A stretch of DNA of 21,714 nucleotides, from IMG/VR virus record IMGVR_UViG_3300008110_001076, positions 1-21,714 of that record. One strand, given 5' to 3'. Shown here piece after piece: positions 2,145 to 20,961 of the stretch. The notes beneath the pieces were generated by a model. It was not told the origin of the DNA and made no database searches. It was given only the letters and a program-made list of their open reading frames with translations. The stretch's first letter is position 1, and every line of letters starts with the position of its first letter. The position numbers and the translations under genes were made by a program. The stretch comes from a virus.

Positions 2145-2620
2145 AGTTTAGCCTTCTTGATTACTTTTTCTTCCGTTCCGTACATTTGACACAACTTTCG
2201 TAATTCTTCTTTGTTGTGCTTGTAGTAGATTTCGAGGTAGTCTGTAGCTTCTGCTGCGCTAATGTCATAATGTTTCCTAACCAAGTCAACCATCCACGAC
2301 TCATATACCGACTCCTTTTTACTCTTAATGTACTTATTAAACTGTCGCCCTTTCGGAATAACTCGGCTGAAGAAGGCGTAGTGTATATCATTTGGTAATG
2401 TGTATTTCTGCATCTCGTTCACGAACGGAGATTGATGCGGATTCATACTCAGAAATTTATTGACCATATACACACTGTATGATTTCTTATCAGCATCGGA
2501 CAATGTATCAAAATAGTCTGGATTCTGCCCAACATAAATTTGCTCTATGTGGTCAAACAGTCCCTTCGTTTTCGATTGATTCGTTTCCTTCGTCTGTGCT
2601 TGTTTCTTCTTCGGTGGCAT
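2141..2620 (-). CDS. 62: clamp loader small subunit, gp62-like
   Basis: This 159-residue protein resembles the T4 gp62 family: YSVYMVNKFLSMNP, then an FFSRVIPKGRQFNKYIK segment matching the conserved PRGKRYGKW-type region, then a helical C-terminus. In T4, one gp62 joins four gp44 subunits to load the gp45 clamp. The first 19 residues form a lysine-rich extension. The start at 2620 has GAGAG upstream and lies 68 bases inside the upstream sulfotransferase-like gene. The gene is about 2.4 kb downstream of the gp44-like gene rather than next to it, but a strong promoter at 2691..2719 precedes it. Similarity to gp62 is low but positionally consistent. Confidence 0.85.
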   Translation of the reverse strand: MPPKKKQAQTKETNQSKTKGLFDHIEQIYVGQNPDYFDTLSDADKKSYSVYMVNKFLSMNPHQSPFVNEMQKYTLPNDIHYAFFSRVIPKGRQFNKYIKSKKESVYESWMVDLVRKHYDISAAEATDYLEIYYKHNKEELRKLCQMYGTEEKVIKKAKL

Positions 2621-3299
2621 TGGTTAGCTCTCGTTTAATTTCTTCTATTACATCACGAAGTTTGTGGGCTTCAATGAAGGGTGTATAATCAATATACGTT
2701 GGATTTGAAATTTTGTCAACATCTTCTTGTGTAAAATCAATCCCCAAACGTTCATTTAACTCTGGTAGATATTCCGTAGATGGTTTCTGCATCATTTCGT
2801 GGTCAACCATACTAACGTGTAATCCAGACTTTAATAAATGTGGTTTAATTACATCGTAATAATATAGAATAGTTTCCAAAATATACTTTAATAAACTTCT
2901 GTCAAGTGGAATATTTTCGGGTGTTTCCAATTGCTCAGTTAAAAACTCTACCAGTGCTGCGTGTTCACCATTACCATTTTCCTGTGCATACGACAATAGT
3001 AACCAACTTGCAGCTTGTTGCGTGATATCCAATCTTTCGGCCAAAACAATTCTATCAAATGCATGCCACGGAAATGTCTGGTAATCTAATATATTTTTAT
3101 AACTTGTCAATGTGGTACTGGTAATCTTAACAGAAAAATCATCCGTGTTCGTCATCATGTCTAATTTTTCTTCCACGGATTTTACAATCGGACCTTCGGA
3201 AAACAATTCCGAATAATCTGTTAAATTAAACTTTGTAGAGAAAAGTGTTCCCAACATACTTGAACACGTACGTGGGGTCGAAACAATAGCTACTCTCAT
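2553..3299 (-). CDS. sulfotransferase-like P-loop protein (copy 1)
   Basis: The 248-residue protein begins MRVAIVSTPRTCSSMLGT. The STPRTCSS loop (7-14) matches the PAPS 5'-phosphate-binding loop of sulfotransferases, which lack the GKT of kinases. A second segment RIVLAERLDITQQAASWLL (83-101) corresponds to the strand-helix with the Arg/Ser that binds the 3'-phosphate. If active it would move sulfate from PAPS to an unknown acceptor. The C-terminal 30 residues are acidic and low complexity. The start at 3299 follows a perfect AAGGAG and overlaps the upstream stop as ATGA. The 3' end overlaps gp62 by 68 bases and contains its promoter. The exact sulfotransferase subfamily is not clear. Confidence 0.7.
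   Translation of the reverse strand: MRVAIVSTPRTCSSMLGTLFSTKFNLTDYSELFSEGPIVKSVEEKLDMMTNTDDFSVKITSTTLTSYKNILDYQTFPWHAFDRIVLAERLDITQQAASWLLLSYAQENGNGEHAALVEFLTEQLETPENIPLDRSLLKYILETILYYYDVIKPHLLKSGLHVSMVDHEMMQKPSTEYLPELNERLGIDFTQEDVDKISNPTYIDYTPFIEAHKLRDVIEEIKRELTNATEEETSTDEGNESIENEGTV
2691..2719 (-). promoter_or_regulatory. intragenic sigma70-type promoter, TTGACA-N17-TATATT
   Basis: A perfect TTGACA (2719..2714), a 17-nt spacer and TATATT (2696..2691) lie inside the 3' part of the sulfotransferase-like gene. Start of transcription would be near 2684, about 64 nt before the gp62 ATG at 2620. It would express gp62, dCMP deaminase and the two small genes up to the terminator at 1142. Confidence 0.75.
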
Positions 3300-4123
3300 A
3301 CATTCTCCTTCAATTCTACTTTCTGAGGTTTCCACCCATTATCTACACCTTGAATAACTTCGATGTTTTCCACAACTCCATCGGTAACAGTGACCTTTTG
3401 AATCAACTGTACGTATTCTTTAATATCGTTATATGGTATGACTGGAATTTTTAAGTTTTTCATCATACGCTTCTTTTCCTTCTTGTCACAGAGAAAATAA
3501 ATATACCGATGTTTGGCTGTTTCCTCTTTTCTCCAAAACGTACGACCAATTCGTTTTGCTAGATTCTCCACGGATTTATTACCAAACTTTGCCCCCACTG
3601 TTCGTGAGTGCATCCACAATCCTCCTTCCTCTAAGAGAAGTGAGAAATCAGGCATCAACTTGGAATATCCACATCCCTGATATATCCAATTCGTTGCTCG
3701 GTAAATACCACCCGTGTGTGATTGTTCTGGGTCTGCGTAACTGACCAATACTTTTACTCGTGAATCATTATCTCTCATCCAGTGGAAGGATTGTGCAATA
3801 GAATAACTTTCAATATTCTTTCCATACCCATCAAGAATAACCAATCTGGTGAGTTCTAATACTTCGTCTAGTTCTAATCCGTCTACAATACTATCAACCG
3901 TTCTATTACTTACAGGATGCCCATAAGTCATACAACCAATCAACTGTTCGTTTTCACCGGCAAAGAACATATGTTCAGTTTCCTCACGATAAAAAATCCC
4001 TAGGGCATATCGTGTGGAACTGAACTTATGTGTGTAATGGTGCTTTTCGATAAAATCCCGTGCCACAGCTTTACTAATTTCTCTAACTGAGACACGGGAC
4101 TTATCAACAAACGTTTGTTCCAT
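3296..4123 (-). CDS. Mom-like GNAT-fold DNA modification protein (copy 1)
   Basis: This 275-residue protein carries the core of the Mom-like family: FIEKHHYTHKF near the N-terminus, LIGCMTYG (61-68), ELTRLVI (90-96), then VSYADPEQSHTGGIYRATNW (127-146). Phage Mu Mom is a GNAT-related enzyme that modifies adenines to block restriction, so a DNA-modifying or nucleotide-modifying role is plausible but unproven here. The C-terminal 90 residues after RTFWRKEE form an extension absent from the second copy at 10847..11431. The start at 4123 lies two bases after the ClpP stop with only a weak ribosome site, suggesting coupling to ClpP. It is translationally coupled through ATGA to the sulfotransferase-like gene. 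Confidence 0.75.
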   Translation of the reverse strand: MEQTFVDKSRVSVREISKAVARDFIEKHHYTHKFSSTRYALGIFYREETEHMFFAGENEQLIGCMTYGHPVSNRTVDSIVDGLELDEVLELTRLVILDGYGKNIESYSIAQSFHWMRDNDSRVKVLVSYADPEQSHTGGIYRATNWIYQGCGYSKLMPDFSLLLEEGGLWMHSRTVGAKFGNKSVENLAKRIGRTFWRKEETAKHRYIYFLCDKKEKKRMMKNLKIPVIPYNDIKEYVQLIQKVTVTDGVVENIEVIQGVDNGWKPQKVELKENV

Positions 4124-10479: not shown

Positions 10480-10850
10480 AAAACCTCTTCCCATGCATAC
10501 TGGGCGTTTAATTTAAAGGTACCGACATATCCACCCCAGAACGCTTGAGCAGGATTTACCAGTGATATAAAAGCAGATCCATTTTGCTTCTTATATAGAT
10601 AGTAAGTATCCCCAATATTCGGCTTAAAACTTATTGAACTTTCATACAACATTTTATTGATAGAATATTCTCGTACCAACTTTTCATAATCCCGTACAAC
10701 AACATCATACCGTTCTTTAAAATAATGTTTAAACGTGGGAGACACTTCTGCTTTCCAAGTATCAACATCAACTGGATGAATTGTTGCTGGTGCGTTAGGT
10801 GTGATTCCATACGTTAATGCGTTTGGATTTTTATTTTCATCATCGTTCAT
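10476..10850 (-). CDS. DUF2452-like protein
   Basis: This 124-residue protein matches the DUF2452 pattern: NPNALTYGITPNAPAT at the N-terminus, a central helix with YEKLVREYSINKMLYES, then FKPNIGDTYYLYKKQNG and FISLVNPAQAFWGG. The family occurs in T4-like phages, bacteria and as a eukaryotic protein, without an established function that I know of. Both ends overlap neighbours as ATGA: the start with the Mom-like gene, the stop with the HExxH gene. This indicates tight co-translation of the three. Confidence 0.8.
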   Translation of the reverse strand: MNDDENKNPNALTYGITPNAPATIHPVDVDTWKAEVSPTFKHYFKERYDVVVRDYEKLVREYSINKMLYESSISFKPNIGDTYYLYKKQNGSAFISLVNPAQAFWGGYVGTFKLNAQYAWEEVL

Positions 10851-11431
10851 AATGCGTAGGTATAGATGTGTTTTGGTTTGGTTTTTATTACCTGTACGCC
10901 TGGGTCACCACGTTTGTATCTGTTATTGATTTCCACCCCGTATGGTCTATCCACCATAGTAAGTGTGCGAACGTGGAACGATTTTCCGTCTACCATCAAT
11001 GTAGTTCCTGGCGCAGTCATACCTTCGTATTTAAAGTTTGCTGCTTTATAAATAATACCTTTGTGTCCTTGCTGTTCGTCTGCATAGCTGACTACGAATT
11101 TCCACTCACTATTTTTTCGTAACCATTTTAATGTCCTACCTACAAAAAAACTTTCAGCGTTCTTTGGCGTGTCATCAATTAAACATAATCTACGAAGTTC
11201 TAAACATTTGTCAGGATCGGTGGGATAATATTTCTGTGCCGCAGAAGCACCTGCTGGACGGGTATAAACGCAAACACCCACCAATTCTGGCAGGAATGTT
11301 CCTTCGCGAAATAATCCAAATGTTTCTTTTTCTTGTATATTCACATAATCCGAATAATGCCAACGACGAAGAAAATTTCTAACTGTTTCCGAAAAACTGA
11401 TATGCTCTACAAAATAGTTTTCTAATGCCAT
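10847..11431 (-). CDS. Mom-like GNAT-fold DNA modification protein (copy 2)
   Basis: The 194-residue protein is the compact paralogue of the protein at 3296..4123. Shared landmarks are FLRRWHYSDYV, LVGVCVYTRP (50-59), ELRRLCLID (78-86) and VVSYADEQQGHKGIIYKAANF (113-133). Conserved Ser115, Tyr116, Asp118, His123 and Tyr128 align with Ser128, Tyr129, Asp131, His136 and Tyr141 of copy 1. Mu Mom modifies adenine in DNA; whether these phage proteins do the same is inferred. The ATG at 11431 has a GAGGTG ribosome site; a GTG two codons upstream is inside that site and was rejected. It follows the tRNA-like element by about 14 bases. Confidence 0.75.
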   Translation of the reverse strand: MALENYFVEHISFSETVRNFLRRWHYSDYVNIQEKETFGLFREGTFLPELVGVCVYTRPAGASAAQKYYPTDPDKCLELRRLCLIDDTPKNAESFFVGRTLKWLRKNSEWKFVVSYADEQQGHKGIIYKAANFKYEGMTAPGTTLMVDGKSFHVRTLTMVDRPYGVEINNRYKRGDPGVQVIKTKPKHIYTYAL

Positions 11432-11444
11432 AATCACCTCATAG

Positions 11445-16764: not shown

Positions 16765-16793
16765 AATATATCCTTAGTCGGCGTCTTTGTCAA
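16765..16793 (-). promoter_or_regulatory. sigma70-type promoter, TTGACA-N17-TATATT
   Basis: Perfect TTGACA (16793..16788), 17 nt, then TATATT (16770..16765), overlapping the 3' end of the DUF2061 gene. Transcription would begin near 16758, leaving a leader of about 22 nt with the polymerase ribosome site. It explains how the polymerase can be expressed apart from the upstream sulfotransferase cluster. Confidence 0.85.
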
Positions 16794-16992
16794 CTCCGAA
16801 TTTTATCCATCTATACCAAACTCTCTCGTGAATATAATATTGTATTGGTTTCCACAATAATTCTGCTATACCAAACGCAGCACCAACTTTTATAGATCCA
16901 CTAACAACCCATATAGTAAAAAATCCAATAGTAGTACTAAGAATTCTATAACTTATTGTTTTTGCTATATGTCGTTTTGGGTGAATCATCAT
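16774..16992 (-). CDS. DUF2061 small membrane protein
   Basis: The 72-residue protein follows the DUF2061 pattern: HPKRHIAKTISYRILSTT, a membrane segment (IGFFTIWVVSG), a second hydrophobic/amphipathic stretch (AAFGIAELLWKPIQYY) and the diagnostic YIHERVWYRW. DUF2061 proteins are small predicted inner-membrane proteins of unknown function, often found beside sulfate-assimilation genes such as cysC and cysN in bacteria as I recall, which would fit this neighbourhood. ATG 16992 has AAGGAT upstream and overlaps the sulfotransferase-like stop as ATGA; the adjacent ATG 16989 is equally possible. A partial copy of its first codons lies at 17805..17826. Confidence 0.85.
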   Translation of the reverse strand: MMIHPKRHIAKTISYRILSTTIGFFTIWVVSGSIKVGAAFGIAELLWKPIQYYIHERVWYRWIKFGVDKDAD

Positions 16993-17717
16993 ATCACATC
17001 CTTGTATATAGAACAATATTTGTTCCAGTTTTTATTAAATTCATCTATATTTGTTATTTTAGCTACTAAATTATTATCTATCGTTTTTTGAACTACTTTG
17101 GAATAATTATCTAATTCTGGTAAATCTAAATATTTTAACAATTTTTCTGGATCGTTTACATAATCTTCAATATAAAACACATAATCCGTTAATTGTTTTA
17201 TTCTGTGTAATCTGCACAACCACTCAAACCACATAGTAAACATATCTTCGGAAACATATATGCCCGACATCATCTGTCTTTTTTGGTGTATGATATGTGG
17301 ATCTCCGTGAAATGTTTTTGTGTACATAGACAAAATAAAACTTAAAAATTGTTGTCGCAAATCTCGTCTTAGTAGGGTTATAGTCTTGTATCTTTGGTTT
17401 TTTATAAATTTATTTATTATGTTATACGACTTACCAACTTTTAAATTAATTATTGGGAGTGGTGTAGTGTCAATTATCTGCTCATACAGTACATACGGAC
17501 TGATTTGTTCATATACCGAATTTTCTCTATGTAATATATTTTCTACACCAGCTTTATATTCAAATATTTCTATACTTTTTTGAAAAATTTCAGGAGTAGT
17601 ATTTAATAAATTATCAGCATATTGTTTGTATTCCGGATACTTTATACTCAAACTTTCTAATATCCACGAATGTATTGCAACACTGCTTGCCCTTGGTAAG
17701 CTTATAATGCAGAACAT
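16989..17717 (-). CDS. sulfotransferase-like P-loop protein (copy 2)
   Basis: This 242-residue protein begins MFCIISLPRASSVAIHSWI; the LPRASS loop (7-12) is the PAPS-binding loop type seen in the copy at 2553..3299. TITLLRRDLRQQFLSFILS (112-130) is the counterpart of the 3'-phosphate-binding strand and helix, with Arg117/118 and Ser126. The C-terminal VFYIEDYVNDPEKLLKYLDLP segment also matches sulfotransferases. It would transfer sulfate from PAPS to an unknown acceptor. The start overlaps the stop of a 24-residue ORF as TAATG and lacks its own strong ribosome site, so it is probably coupled. Base composition is visibly more AT-rich than in the replication genes. Confidence 0.75.
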   Translation of the reverse strand: MFCIISLPRASSVAIHSWILESLSIKYPEYKQYADNLLNTTPEIFQKSIEIFEYKAGVENILHRENSVYEQISPYVLYEQIIDTTPLPIINLKVGKSYNIINKFIKNQRYKTITLLRRDLRQQFLSFILSMYTKTFHGDPHIIHQKRQMMSGIYVSEDMFTMWFEWLCRLHRIKQLTDYVFYIEDYVNDPEKLLKYLDLPELDNYSKVVQKTIDNNLVAKITNIDEFNKNWNKYCSIYKDVI

Positions 17718-17791
17718 TATAATTGCAGTTGTTTAGGAATATTTATTGCGGAAATAATTTCAATTTTATCATCTAATTTAACATGTACCAT
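17717..17791 (-). CDS. 24-residue micro-ORF upstream of sulfotransferase-like gene
   Basis: ATG 17791 follows AAGGATATT at workable distance. The peptide starts MVHVKLDDKIEII and ends KQLQL, and its stop overlaps the next gene's ATG as TAATG. No membrane segment is present. It may serve mainly to deliver ribosomes to the sulfotransferase-like gene, which has no good ribosome site of its own. It is short enough to be a chance ORF. Confidence 0.4.
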   Translation of the reverse strand: MVHVKLDDKIEIISAINIPKQLQL

Positions 17792-17826
17792 TATAAAATA
17801 TCCTTATGTCGCTTTGGATGAACCAT
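17791..17826 (-). pseudogene. remnant of a DUF2061 gene start (11 codons)
   Basis: The 22 bases at 17826..17805 match the first codons of the DUF2061 gene (16989..16968) at 19 of 22 positions; all differences are transitions and mostly synonymous. The reading frame gives MVHPKRHKDIL then stops, with TAATG overlapping the next micro-ORF. There is no ribosome site. It looks like a truncated duplicate left by recombination. Confidence 0.45.
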
Positions 17827-17828
17827 AA

Positions 17829-18491
17829 TTAATCAGTTAAATAATTTAATGGGTAATTAAATGTAATAAAATCTTCGTGGAACAAATGCTCCGCCAACTC
17901 AATAAATTCAGGGTCAGTAAAGTCTAGGTTATTCAAAGGATCGGTTTCTATCAAGTCCAATGCTTCAAGTTTACTGATGTCATATGTAAAATTATTTGTT
18001 ATCCAGTTATTAAATTCAGATATGTTTTCATATTTAAACACAGTGATTTCCGAACTGCTTGCCCAGAACTTTTGTGTTTTAAAGAATGCACCAATAAACC
18101 ATTCAGATTGCGTATTAAATATTTCACTTAATGTGTTTCCTTTTGGTTGACAATTTCTATTGAAATTTTCATAGAAAAAAGTAACCATATTGTGAATAGT
18201 ATCATGTGGAAGCACAAAAGAAATTCGCGGGTCTGTTGCTTTACGTTCAAACATATAACGTAAAGAAGAAATAAATCTATCAACAGGATTTCTAACTACT
18301 GTGAAGTACTTAACAGAACTATCATTGACTGTTGATAATATACTGTATGATGAATGACCCAGTGGATAAAATTTATTAGCTTTCAATTCACTTGCAAATG
18401 ATTCATCAAATAAACTGTTATATGCTTTCGTACCAGTTCGTGGTATTTTTACATAGCACCACTGGTTACCGTTCGTATCATTTATAATCAT
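17829..18491 (-). CDS. sulfotransferase, Sulfotransfer_2-like (copy 3)
   Basis: The 220-residue protein has the two PAPS-binding signatures of carbohydrate-type sulfotransferases: VKIPRTGTKAY (14-24; the 5'-phosphosulfate loop) and FTVVRNPVDRFISSLRYMF (63-81; the 3'-phosphate site with Arg67 and Ser75/76). GHSSY (45-49) lies where relatives keep a catalytic or substrate His. Bacterial and phage members sulfate surface glycans or small molecules. It lacks a signal or membrane anchor, so it would act in the cytoplasm. Its ATG overlaps the stop of the nucleotidyltransferase gene as ATGA, tying sulfate transfer to the putative activation genes just upstream. Confidence 0.85.
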   Translation of the reverse strand: MIINDTNGNQWCYVKIPRTGTKAYNSLFDESFASELKANKFYPLGHSSYSILSTVNDSSVKYFTVVRNPVDRFISSLRYMFERKATDPRISFVLPHDTIHNMVTFFYENFNRNCQPKGNTLSEIFNTQSEWFIGAFFKTQKFWASSSEITVFKYENISEFNNWITNNFTYDISKLEALDLIETDPLNNLDFTDPEFIELAEHLFHEDFITFNYPLNYLTD

Positions 18492-18844
18492 ATTCCGAGT
18501 TCCTTACGAATTTGGGTTGCACTAATTGATTCAATTTCATCATCCAACTTAATTTGTTCGACTTTATAACCAACATCACGACCATAGTATACACCAGAAA
18601 TATTTGGCAATTGCCAAATGGTATACTTACCTGCGTAATCTTGTTCTAAATCTTCGTGGATTCTAGAAATAACATCTTCGATTGGCAATGGGTCTTTTTC
18701 GGTTGTTCCGTGAGTATCACGAACGCCGATACATACTTGTCCGGCAATAGACAAAATCTTTTCAAATAGAGCACGATGACCTCTGTGCCAGGGTTGATAT
18801 CTTCCCACCATAAGTCCAGTGGGTGCTTTGGGGTTAAACTGCAT
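18488..18844 (-). CDS. nucleotidyltransferase, HxGH cytidylyltransferase-like
   Basis: This 118-residue protein is a compact alpha/beta-phosphodiesterase-type nucleotidyltransferase: GRYQPWHRGHRALFEK with HRGH at 20-23, and ISATQIR at 107-113 as the ISSTxIR counterpart. In these enzymes HxGH contacts the ATP or CTP phosphates. Families with this core include NMN adenylyltransferase, phosphopantetheine adenylyltransferase, CTP-type transferases and ATP sulfurylase. YGRDVGY is a distinctive insertion I associate with phage proteins next to adenylylsulfate kinase. An ATP-sulfurylase-like role (APS formation) is inferred only from neighbours. ATG 18844 follows AGAGGTG; the GTG two codons earlier is inside that site. 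Confidence 0.85.
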   Translation of the reverse strand: MQFNPKAPTGLMVGRYQPWHRGHRALFEKILSIAGQVCIGVRDTHGTTEKDPLPIEDVISRIHEDLEQDYAGKYTIWQLPNISGVYYGRDVGYKVEQIKLDDEIESISATQIRKELGI

Positions 18845-19496
18845 GTTCACCTCTGTGTTTTTTCTTTAAGGTTTCACTAATTTTTCTTTTCGTTTCTTCC
18901 GATACATGTTTTGTTTTTCGTTGCCCACTTTTCCATGCATCTTTTTGTTTTTTTCGCATCATTTCTTTATTTTTTGGATTGCTCCAAAATTCTTTAATTT
19001 TTTCTGATCGTTTTTGTATGGTTTCATCACTCTGTTTTTTTCCAGTTAAACTATCAGATATTTTATTTTTCCAATCTTCGGTTCTTCGTAAATTTGCTTC
19101 TTTTATTTTTTCACGAGTTTCCAGTGAATGTTTGTAATTTTTACTCAATCTACTTTTAGTCACTTTTTCAATATGCTCTTTTGTTTTGTATTTCATAGCA
19201 TATGTTAGATTACCAGTTCCAAAACACCCTTCATTCAGCCAATTTGTGTTATGTATTAAATTACATTTCTTTATTAATTTTTGTTCCCACGCAAATGCTT
19301 CTTCTGGGGTATCAAATAGTTTTCTAACCTCTGCTATAAAACTATCCTTACCATATGATTTTATTAAATCTTTTACTATTTTAGAACTTGAAAAATAAGT
19401 AATCCATAAATTTTCTGGATGTGAGTTTTTACCGTATTTTACACCATAGTATCGTTTTCCAGTGGGTATGTGAGTTAATAAATAAGTATAAGCCAT
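18834..19496 (-). CDS. homing endonuclease, GIY-YIG-like with NUMOD3 repeats
   Basis: The 220-residue protein has a degenerate GIY-YIG-type N-terminal domain: YTYLLTHIPTGKRYYGVKYG, then a conserved FSSSKIVKDLIKSYG region and a candidate catalytic Glu71 in FAWEQKLI. Basic NUMOD3-type DNA-binding repeats follow (KHSLETREKIKEA, KKQSDETIQKRSEK, KHVSEETKRKISETLKKK). Such free-standing endonucleases cut alleles lacking them and copy themselves into the break. It is inserted between the APS-kinase-like and nucleotidyltransferase genes, which in related phages I would expect side by side. ATG 19496 has GGAGATACAC upstream. A weak hairpin and a T4-late-promoter-like box precede it. Its stop overlaps the next gene by 11 bases. 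Confidence 0.85.
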   Translation of the reverse strand: MAYTYLLTHIPTGKRYYGVKYGKNSHPENLWITYFSSSKIVKDLIKSYGKDSFIAEVRKLFDTPEEAFAWEQKLIKKCNLIHNTNWLNEGCFGTGNLTYAMKYKTKEHIEKVTKSRLSKNYKHSLETREKIKEANLRRTEDWKNKISDSLTGKKQSDETIQKRSEKIKEFWSNPKNKEMMRKKQKDAWKSGQRKTKHVSEETKRKISETLKKKHRGEHAV

Positions 19497-19518
19497 GTGT
19501 ATCTCCAAAAATACCATA

Positions 19519-19526
19519 TACTTATA
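19519..19526 (-). promoter_or_regulatory. T4-late-type -10 box candidate (TATAAGTA)
   Basis: TATAAGTA differs at one position from the T4 late promoter TATAAATA and lies about 23 nt before the homing endonuclease ATG, a setting where T4 homing endonuclease genes often carry late promoters. One mismatch in an AT-rich gap can arise by chance. Confidence 0.25.
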
Positions 19527-19553
19527 CTTATCATTAAGCCTCTCAAAAACACC

Positions 19554-19570
19554 GATTTTTACAAAAAATC
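19554..19570 (-). terminator. weak terminator-like hairpin
   Basis: Just after the APS-kinase-like stop, GATTTTT-TGT-AAAAATC forms a 7-bp AT-rich stem, followed shortly by GTGTTTTTG. The stem is weak, so termination would be partial at best. It could insulate the homing endonuclease from upstream transcription. Confidence 0.35.
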
Positions 19571-19571
19571 A

Positions 19572-20009
19572 TTAACACTGTTGATGCTTTAGAATTAAAT
19601 TGCATATTCTCTGTGCCTCTTCCTCTACGGGATTAAATTGTGTAATACGATCGTTATATTCGTTATCAGTAGGTACTTGCCACACTTTGTTAGTATCTTC
19701 AAACCGACCCTCTGTAATAGTGTCCATCCATACTGCAAAGTGTGGTTCGTAGATAGCACGGAGTTCTGCGGTTGGGGCCACGAAATCAGATACTACATAT
19801 TGCACCCGACCCTCTTCCAAAATATTATCGGACATGGTTCTCATACGAAGTGCTTGTCGTGCTCGTCCGGCGGGACTAAAATCCCAATCTTCAAATGCTT
19901 TACGGATGGCGTCTGCGTTTAGATGACCTGCGTTTGGAAGTAACTTAACCAACTCTTGTGCTAATGTAGTTTTTCCAGAACCAGGTAAACCAAATAGTAA
20001 AATTCTCAT
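19572..20009 (-). CDS. cysC: adenylylsulfate (APS) kinase-like P-loop kinase
   Basis: The 145-residue kinase starts with the Walker A GLPGSGKTT (7-15). Next come HLNADAIRKAFEDWDFSP (29-46) and GRARQALRM, which align with the APS-kinase DGDxxR...FSxxDRxxNxRR region, and DFVAPTAELRAIY, which corresponds to the FxSPxRxxR segment. APS kinase makes PAPS, the sulfate donor for sulfotransferases. The enzyme is shorter than CysC (about 200 residues) and has NAD in place of DGD, so another small-molecule kinase activity is possible. The start has GAGGGG and overlaps the stop of the Vsr-like gene as ATGA. The link to sulfotransferases is inferred from context. Confidence 0.75.
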   Translation of the reverse strand: MRILLFGLPGSGKTTLAQELVKLLPNAGHLNADAIRKAFEDWDFSPAGRARQALRMRTMSDNILEEGRVQYVVSDFVAPTAELRAIYEPHFAVWMDTITEGRFEDTNKVWQVPTDNEYNDRITQFNPVEEEAQRICNLILKHQQC

Positions 20010-20392
20010 GACCCCTCATCTAATTTAATATGTTTCTTTATTTTTGATTGAACAATTTTCGGATTATTTCTAATGTCATTTTCCCATAAACATAAAAATT
20101 TAAATCCCATCTGCTCAAATTTTTTCTTTCGTTCATTATCACGTTGCCAAATTTCTTCGGCTGTCTTTTTCTTACCTTTATTAAAATAGGAAGAAGTATA
20201 TTGCTGCGGGTTACAGTGCCAAAAGTCACCATAACATTCCACGATATATTTTTTATTTACCAAAAAATCAACGGTGTATCTATCCACCGAAACTTGTTCT
20301 TCAAAAGGAAGATTAAGTCTTGTTAATATTGTAGAAACCGTTTGTTCAATTTTATTACTTGTACACTTAGTTTCTTTTTTCTTACGACTCAT
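20006..20392 (-). CDS. Vsr-like PD-(D/E)XK endonuclease
   Basis: The 128-residue protein matches the Vsr/DUF559 endonuclease core: YTVDFLVNKKYIVECYGDFWH (39-59; candidate Asp42, Glu52, Asp56, His59), WQRDNERKKKFEQMGFKFLCLWENDI (82-107). Vsr nicks DNA at T-G mismatches; related EDxHD enzymes are homing endonucleases in phages. With no adjacent cytosine methylase, a homing or DNA-degradation role seems more likely than mismatch repair. The N-terminus is strongly basic (MSRKKKETK). It is coupled at its stop to the APS-kinase-like gene through ATGA and at its start overlaps the oxygenase stop by 4 bases. Confidence 0.8.
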   Translation of the reverse strand: MSRKKKETKCTSNKIEQTVSTILTRLNLPFEEQVSVDRYTVDFLVNKKYIVECYGDFWHCNPQQYTSSYFNKGKKKTAEEIWQRDNERKKKFEQMGFKFLCLWENDIRNNPKIVQSKIKKHIKLDEGS

Positions 20393-20961
20393 AAGTTATA
20401 TTGTGTATTGAAACTCAACGTAATTCTCATATTGGTTTTATTTGGTGGAACGTAATGTTGAACCCAACTTGGAAATAATACTAACTGTCCTGTTTTCGAC
20501 TCCACGTTTTCTATATTAGATGTATACATACCAGGTGCATCTTTTCTTGTATGCTGTACGTCCAACATTCTAAATCCTTCCGTTGCACTTACAAATGTAA
20601 TTGGTGCGCTTCCTTCGTCCACATAAGGATAATATGCTCCACTAATTACACTATCATAATGTCTATGAACACCAACAGAACCATTCATACTTAGAATATT
20701 CATCCAGCTTTCATAAATATAACTGGTGTGAATTCCAATTCTATTTGAGTACTCGTCAATACACTCTTGGAATTTATTGTATAATGGTTTTAGTGCGGGT
20801 ATCTTACTTGGGTCTGCGTCACCACGAATTCCATCTACTAAACTATTCGTTGTGTATCCAATATTTTGTAATGCGTGGTTTACATCATCGGTGACGAAAT
20901 CCGATAAATTAAAAATTGCTACTGGTGTGGAAAATAACCATAGAGTATTTATTTCTGTCAT
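20389..20961 (-). CDS. 2-oxoglutarate/Fe(II)-dependent oxygenase
   Basis: The 190-residue protein fits the small phage 2OG-Fe(II) oxygenase type. ESWMNILSMNGSVGVHRHYDS leads to the HxD iron site (His101, Asp103), followed by VISGAYYPY. GQLVLFPSWVQHYVPPN gives the distal His169, and MRITLSFN gives Arg179 for 2-oxoglutarate. Such enzymes hydroxylate proteins, nucleobases or small molecules and are common in T4-like marine phages, where substrates are mostly unknown. The start at 20961 follows the IscA-like gene by 9 bases. No signal peptide. Confidence 0.88.
   Translation of the reverse strand: MTEINTLWLFSTPVAIFNLSDFVTDDVNHALQNIGYTTNSLVDGIRGDADPSKIPALKPLYNKFQECIDEYSNRIGIHTSYIYESWMNILSMNGSVGVHRHYDSVISGAYYPYVDEGSAPITFVSATEGFRMLDVQHTRKDAPGMYTSNIENVESKTGQLVLFPSWVQHYVPPNKTNMRITLSFNTQYNL

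Follow-up and report, generated by a model that had tools for sequence, protein, structure and literature searches.

Can a phage make its own 3'-phosphoadenosine 5'-phosphosulfate (PAPS) and hand it to sulfotransferases that it also encodes? The question is raised by a minus-strand gene block in IMG/VR virus record IMGVR_UViG_3300008110_001076, which we analyzed as the complete record of 21,714 bases (here called the window). The original prediction had placed four open reading frames (ORFs) in this block, an adenosine 5'-phosphosulfate (APS)-kinase-like gene at 19572..20009 (KIN), an HxGH nucleotidyltransferase at 18488..18844 (NT), a Sulfotransfer_2-like gene at 17829..18491 (ST_A), and a second sulfotransferase-like gene at 16989..17717 (ST_B), and all four lie there. 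It had also proposed that the phage makes PAPS and transfers its sulfuryl group, an idea that gained from bacterial gene contexts (apr and cys operons and gene fusions) and lost the hinted homology to ATP sulfurylases; the second sulfotransferase stayed unconfirmed. Judged by sequence, KIN and NT quite probably form a compact PAPS synthase that feeds the neighboring sulfotransferase(s), with NT as a third lineage of ATP sulfurylase. In the proposed route, NT would adenylylate sulfate (ATP + sulfate -> APS + pyrophosphate [PPi]), KIN would phosphorylate the product (APS + ATP -> PAPS + ADP), and the neighboring sulfotransferase(s) would pass the sulfuryl group to an acceptor. We infer both reactions, their direction, and the acceptor from the observed sequence families, gene order, and recurrence.

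KIN is a divergent APS-kinase-like P-loop kinase of 145 amino acids (aa) that passes PF01583, as predicted, with 31.3 bits (cut-off, 21.1) and also matches AAA_33. The best PDB matches of the family profile are APS kinases and kinase domains of PAPS synthetases (E values of 3.6e-13 to 4e-12), and the family-invariant P-loop, N-A-D-x-x-R, D-x-x-F, R, and D-F-x-x-P motifs of KIN align with LDGDNIR, LGFS, DR, and FISP of APS kinase. NT likewise bore out its predicted family (PF01467, 24.4 bits; cut-off, 21). The two genes match the first and second halves, respectively, of the 230-position model of PHROG 10255 (phrog_10255), a relation that the original prediction had missed together with the GIY-YIG and DUF2061 genes described below. 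Scanning IMG/VR for the family gave 65 viral loci, near-duplicates included, with KIN and NT fused in 39 and KIN as a separate nearby ORF in 22; the other 4 lack KIN, and there the contig starts inside NT or a short distance ahead of it. As both genes thus recur together in 61 of the 65 loci, their association is above chance, and the cassette is real. A DUF2061 gene lies downstream of NT in 39 of the 65 and is also present in the window (16774..16992, minus strand; PF09834, 51.4 bits; cut-off, 23.1); its small membrane protein is a recurrent partner of the cassette. We found no paper naming DUF2061 together with a sulfotransferase, and no sulfur link appears in the passages on DUF2061 that were consulted.

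The first context that bears on the reaction of NT comes from SAR11 bacteria. Family matches (KIN and/or NT, at an E value of 1e-20) occur in 195 of the 247 SAR11-order genomes searched. NT without KIN lies directly upstream of aprM-aprB-aprA, on one strand, in 11/11 SAR11 loci examined, these being the loci with NT lacking KIN and with coordinates listed (L203, L217-L220, and L224-L229), and the order NT, AprM, AprB, AprA, a 116-aa ORF, and a TauE/SafE-like permease is the same in all 11. One copy each of AprA and AprB was scored and reached 1000.5 bits (cut-off, 641.75) and 187.7 bits (cut-off, 135.65), respectively, while the AprM label comes from gene position and a weak QmoC match; in genome G265, a second NT also adjoins aprA. 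According to the part of the source available to us, sat of Allochromatium vinosum is found immediately upstream of aprMBA and in one transcript with it, which is not so in some other Chromatiaceae (PMC3779200). Of 60 SAR11-order genomes scanned for Sat (PF01747), 40 of which have the family and 20 of which lack it, 57 gave no Sat, and all those with the 11 apr loci are among the 57. AprA is over its cut-off in 198 of the 247 genomes, and 182 genomes have both the family and aprA, 13 the family only, 19 aprA only, and 33 neither, an association with an odds ratio of 24 (Fisher p of 2e-17) when kinship and genome gaps are ignored. "Candidatus Pelagibacter ubique" is reported, in the accessible part of the paper, to have aprBA, cysC, and cysQ and to lack sat, cysDN, and cysHIJ (PMC5069961), and aprBA without sat or cysDN leaves the fate of APS open there; other SAR11 genomes now offer a candidate enzyme in their apr operon. 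The cysC reported for that organism may well be KIN. NT thus seems to close a gap that SAR11, which are very common ocean bacteria, have in their sulfur metabolism. As a separate observation, short Sat homologues (~335 to 354 aa) occur near glycan-like ORFs in SAR11-like genomes (L209:1793-2857, L221, L222, and L223), with pyruvate-kinase-like, NeuB-like, or APS-kinase-like neighbors, these labels having been given mostly by eye.

A second context is sulfate assimilation. The family alignment, run against GTDB contigs, found 54 loci, 24 bacterial (L067-L090) and 30 archaeal, the latter aligning over NT only and being NadM-like. One bacterial locus, from a marine alphaproteobacterial single-cell genome (L085), reads sirohydrochlorin chelatase-like protein, CobA (275.9 bits; cut-off, 185), sulfite reductase (SiR; 707.8 bits; cut-off, 457), CysH (251.9 bits; cut-off, 154), DUF2061, KIN, and NT. 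KIN-NT is present in 5/6 genomes searched from the same order, and all five carry the CobA-SiR-CysH-DUF2061-KIN-NT operon, which in L208 is cut within CobA. CysD was not found in these five genomes, each having as its single PF01507 match over the cut-off CysH; the same model can detect CysD, since it recovered a true one in G015. Sat (PF01747) was not found in four of the five; in G019, the remaining one, a 354-aa Sat homologue lies in an apparent glycan gene cluster. A third context is fusion: the partner of NT is a bona fide APS kinase (PF01583, 215.9 bits) in L082 (OCS116) and a canonical one (apsK, 150.1 bits; cut-off, 138.7) in L081, a gammaproteobacterial metagenome-assembled genome locus cut by the contig end. 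NT (~115 residues) is therefore, in our reading of these gene contexts, probably an unrecognized third ATP sulfurylase lineage derived from an NMN (nicotinamide mononucleotide) adenylyltransferase, which would close sulfite oxidation in SAR11 (APS + PPi -> ATP + sulfate), take the place of CysDN or Sat in assimilatory operons, and, together with a divergent APS kinase, serve phages as a very small PAPS synthase for their own sulfotransferases. ATP sulfurylase holds a central place in the sulfur cycle, and this enzyme type has apparently gone unrecognized in sulfate activation: no description of an ATP sulfurylase of the NT type was found among the titles and abstract openings listed in searches of open-license PMC papers.

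The sequence of NT also recalls Sat at a few places. HxGH is invariant; in SxTxxR, over 56 rows, Ser is invariant, Thr and Arg are each kept in at least 90%, and Ala mostly replaces the Gly found in Sat. The QxRN sulfate-binding loop is absent from NT, which has GRxQP there instead, and GRxVG is present in 87/87 NT rows chosen for the tree. In the consulted part of the Allochromatium Sat paper, the sulfate of APS is held by the backbone NH of Ala299 (GRD loop) and by Gln199 and Arg201 (QxRN), and Arg365 comes from SGTxxR (PMC3779200). NT combines SxTxxR with a loop of the GRD type, in which Gly stands where Sat has Ala, and lacks QxRN, which amounts to a resemblance and not to proof; NT would be a NadM-related HxGH enzyme that has lost part of its acceptor region and carries a Sat-like GR(D/G)VG loop. 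In a tree of 87 family rows plus NadM (115 columns; deep forks unsure), all NT rows, whether from apr, cys, fusion, or phage contexts, form one group against NadM (100/100). The apr rows make one clade (100/99) and the cys rows another (100/90), while the window falls in a mainly phage group (99/93), next to a group (99/94) of SAR11, apr, and cys rows with some phages; below both, at an open fork, come the APS kinase fusions.

What remains is the link to sulfotransferases. ST_A reaches PF03567 by a narrow margin (22.9 bits; cut-off, 22), so the predicted Sulfotransfer_2 label is marginal, and it matches phrog_3347 with 28.2 bits; compared with the PDB by sequence, it gave two chance rows only (E values of 0.6 to 0.8). 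The coupling predicted between NT and ST_A is there as an ATGA-type overlap at 18488-18491. ST_B is a putative, sulfotransferase-like protein by its N-terminal SLPRASS motif alone, and the label could not be confirmed: nothing is over the cut-off in Pfam, PHROGs, or NCBIfam (sole Pfam match, DUF7318, 13.7 bits; cut-off, 27), and a 5-row profile had no PDB match. Relatives of ST_B occupy the same position in L010 and L011, and weak ones (22 to 24%) occur in L019 and L020. Phage records contained no match to ST_A (E value of 1e-3) or ST_B (E value of 1e-2). Clearer cases come from other viral loci. In L052, L057, and L059, an evident sulfotransferase overlaps KIN by 4 bases, giving the order sulfotransferase-KIN-NT-DUF2061 (with an extra ORF between KIN and NT in L057), and a candidate lies just upstream in L039 and L034, where local profiles, which are weak detectors, were used. 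Among bacteria, KIN-NT adjoins a TPR-sulfotransferase (140 bits) in G686, and a sulfotransferase lies 2.7 kb off in G496. We scanned 44 de-duplicated phage records, all bearing the pair; PF13469 matched in 8 (4 over the cut-off) and PF03567 in 11 (5 over the cut-off), and 11/23 sulfotransferase places fell within ~2 kb of the pair, where 3.3 were expected (P of 3e-5). Taken together, the apr, cys, fusion, and sulfotransferase contexts are explained most economically if NT makes (or uses) APS and KIN makes PAPS. Phages would then supply themselves with PAPS, and infection would yield sulfated products; the proteins are small, and the claim can be tested with them directly.

Several observations weigh against reading the pair as a PAPS synthase. 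The clustering of sulfotransferases is only indicative because it counts related phages separately and covers only phages with the pair. Five cultured phages have the gene as a one-piece match to the fused query, and the absence of sulfotransferases from related phages with the pair, named by the original prediction as evidence against it, was partly what we found: none was annotated, or detected by two weak local profiles, in the 49 kb examined of Xanthomonas phage AhaSv (55.6 kb) or in the 16.7 kb examined of each of the Stenotrophomonas phages Bhz60 (56.6 kb) and DLP_6 (168 kb). Sat homologues co-occur with the family in G009, G017, G019, G049, and G113, and a second strong PF01507 protein (in G015, the true CysD) is found in family-bearing G002, G005, G006, and G015; some family-bearing bins may hold phage contigs (L248 and L249).

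The alternative that survives best would split the family, with the NT of apr and cys operons being ATP sulfurylases and the phage NT having changed its acceptor, so that no PAPS would be made in the window. Besides the cultured phages just described, it can appeal to the loop: GRDVG is found in all 43 phage rows, the window included, while the apr and cys forms have GRGVG, so the Asp is not family-wide. We consider this split unlikely, since the loop of NT in the fusions with true APS kinase is of the phage type (GRDVGY) and several phage lineages have sulfotransferases next to the pair.

Next comes salvage of NAD in the manner of NadR, in which the kinase would convert nicotinamide riboside to NMN and NT would convert NMN to NAD, perhaps against an NAD-depleting defense. 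It draws on the fold of NT, whose ancestry also counts against the PAPS synthase. By hhalign, the NT profile matches archaeal NadM with 99.5% (nine archaeal sequences, of which the five scanned all pass NF002243), while comparison with Sat is weak (28%), so that the predicted ATP sulfurylase membership gave way to kinship with NadM. The best PDB match by profile is MJ0541 (7.8e-12), no Sat is listed in that search, and among solved structures NT is closest to NMN and phosphopantetheine adenylyltransferases. Both enzymes are also matched by a model of NT alone (pLDDT, 93.9; Foldseek match to 1ej2, TMq of 0.71); both occur among the 50 VIA matches listed, where no Sat appears, which excludes nothing. 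A model of fused KIN-NT matched mostly T4 polynucleotide kinase and APS kinases in Foldseek and left NT without resolved matches. In Bhz60, moreover, the fused gene follows an NADAR-annotated gene. NT as a homologue of Sat or CysD was ruled out by family scans and profile comparison (no PF01747 match; TIGR00339, 11.8 bits against 322.95). Still, NT stays under the cut-off of NCBIfam arch_NMN_Atrans (28.7 bits against 181.2), which 4/5 true NadM proteins pass, and its alignment lacks the ~25 residues that hold the invariant Trp of NadM, which we take to bind NMN, and a Pro column. With that region gone, an APS-kinase-like kinase, and apr, cys, and APS kinase fusion contexts that have no NAD link, NAD salvage is quite improbable.

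The kinase raises the last objections. With the NCBIfam apsK model (TIGR00455), KIN scores 24.4 bits, far under the cut-off of 138.7, and we call it APS-kinase-like rather than a filed member for this reason. In the 19 KIN-bearing SAR11 loci viewed, the commonest neighbors are a Rieske oxygenase (16/19), an enoyl-CoA hydratase (17/19), and a CoA-binding ORF, which is not a clear sulfate context, and some loci have thiosulfate-transporter-like or methanethiol-oxidase-like genes far under NCBIfam cut-offs. These mostly nonsulfate neighbors and a divergent, AAA_33-like kinase would suit a pair that activates some different small anion or chemical group, for example a phosphoramidate, phosphonate, or sulfonate, by way of a nucleotide and a 3'-kinase step, as in cytidine-diphosphoramidate synthesis, a reading made very unlikely by NT at the position of sat beside APS reductase and in sulfate assimilation operons of genomes without detected CysD and, in 4/5, without Sat.

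Read as a PAPS synthase, the pair has known counterparts in PAPSS1/2 and in Sat-APS kinase fusions, which likewise unite an APS-kinase-like domain with an HxGH adenylyltransferase, whether in a single protein or as a pair of genes; in PAPSS1 the kinase also comes first (residues 55-141 of 630, 1x6v). Unlike PAPSS1/2, NT has ~115 aa, is NadM related, and has no PF01747 domain, and KIN is shorter. With Sat, NT shares HxGH, the GRD loop, S(A/G)TxxR, and the operon place before aprMBA; it differs in having no PF01747 match, GRxQP for QxRN, and no further domains in 120 aa. The likeness to CysD-CysN lies in the putative reaction and the cys operon context, although NT is no PF01507 protein, and the likeness to archaeal NadM lies in the fold and in GRxQPxHxGH, although NT lacks the invariant-Trp region and has GR(D/G)VGY. 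Viral APS kinase alone is not new, since virus-encoded cysC and cysH genes have been reported (PMC9529941); in the part of that paper available to us, these resemble KIN as viral APS-kinase-like genes, and neither an adenylyltransferase partner nor a sulfotransferase is named.

In the window, KIN and NT are separated by a GIY-YIG homing endonuclease gene (18834..19517, minus strand; SegE-like, with NUMOD3; PF19835, 30.4 bits [cut-off, 25]; PF07460, 26.7 bits [cut-off, 20.4]), as they are in L002-L006. The endonuclease is 100% identical in L002-L006 and was not found in the remaining viral loci; that of L006 is 100% identical to the copy in the window, while its KIN is 89% identical. KIN and NT overlap out of frame in L007-L013, and the endonuclease sits at this overlap of its relatives, which looks duplicated, leaving both genes whole. 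In L001, KIN and NT are joined in frame, and the junction (L001:2890-3010) retains bases identical to the last ones of the GIY gene, apparently a scar left when that gene was lost. A group I intron between KIN and NT was rejected, as Rfam gave no match and relatives show a free-standing homing endonuclease gene. A different ORF without a Pfam match separates the two in L057 (7247-8008), perhaps a second, independent mobile insertion, and PP-loop-ATPase-like ORFs, read by eye, lie near the cassette in L014:2352-2867 and L053:3760-4464. A further sulfur gene, an annotated cysteine dioxygenase, lies ~3 kb upstream of the fused gene in two cultured phages (L256:4117-4812 and L258:4187-4864).

Upstream of KIN in the same minus-strand block, and outside the pathway assignment, are a Vsr/DUF559-like endonuclease (20006..20392; PF04480, 35.7 bits) and a 2OG-Fe(II) oxygenase (20389..20961; PF13759, 72.6 bits). 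ATGA-type overlaps also join the Vsr-like gene to KIN and ST_B to DUF2061. The ATG start of NT gives the coordinates used here, and an alternative GTG start would extend the gene to 18850. A megablast search with the window DNA found no matching phage record. We assign the window to a T4-like phage because its DNA polymerase is closest to that of Microcystis phage Mel-JY01 (43% identity); the host is perhaps a cyanobacterium. Elsewhere in the window, an extra ORF at 2553..3335 has a sulfotransferase-like N terminus with a subthreshold PF00685 match, and the ORFs at 3296..4123 and 10847..11437 presumably resemble Mom-type DNA modification proteins.

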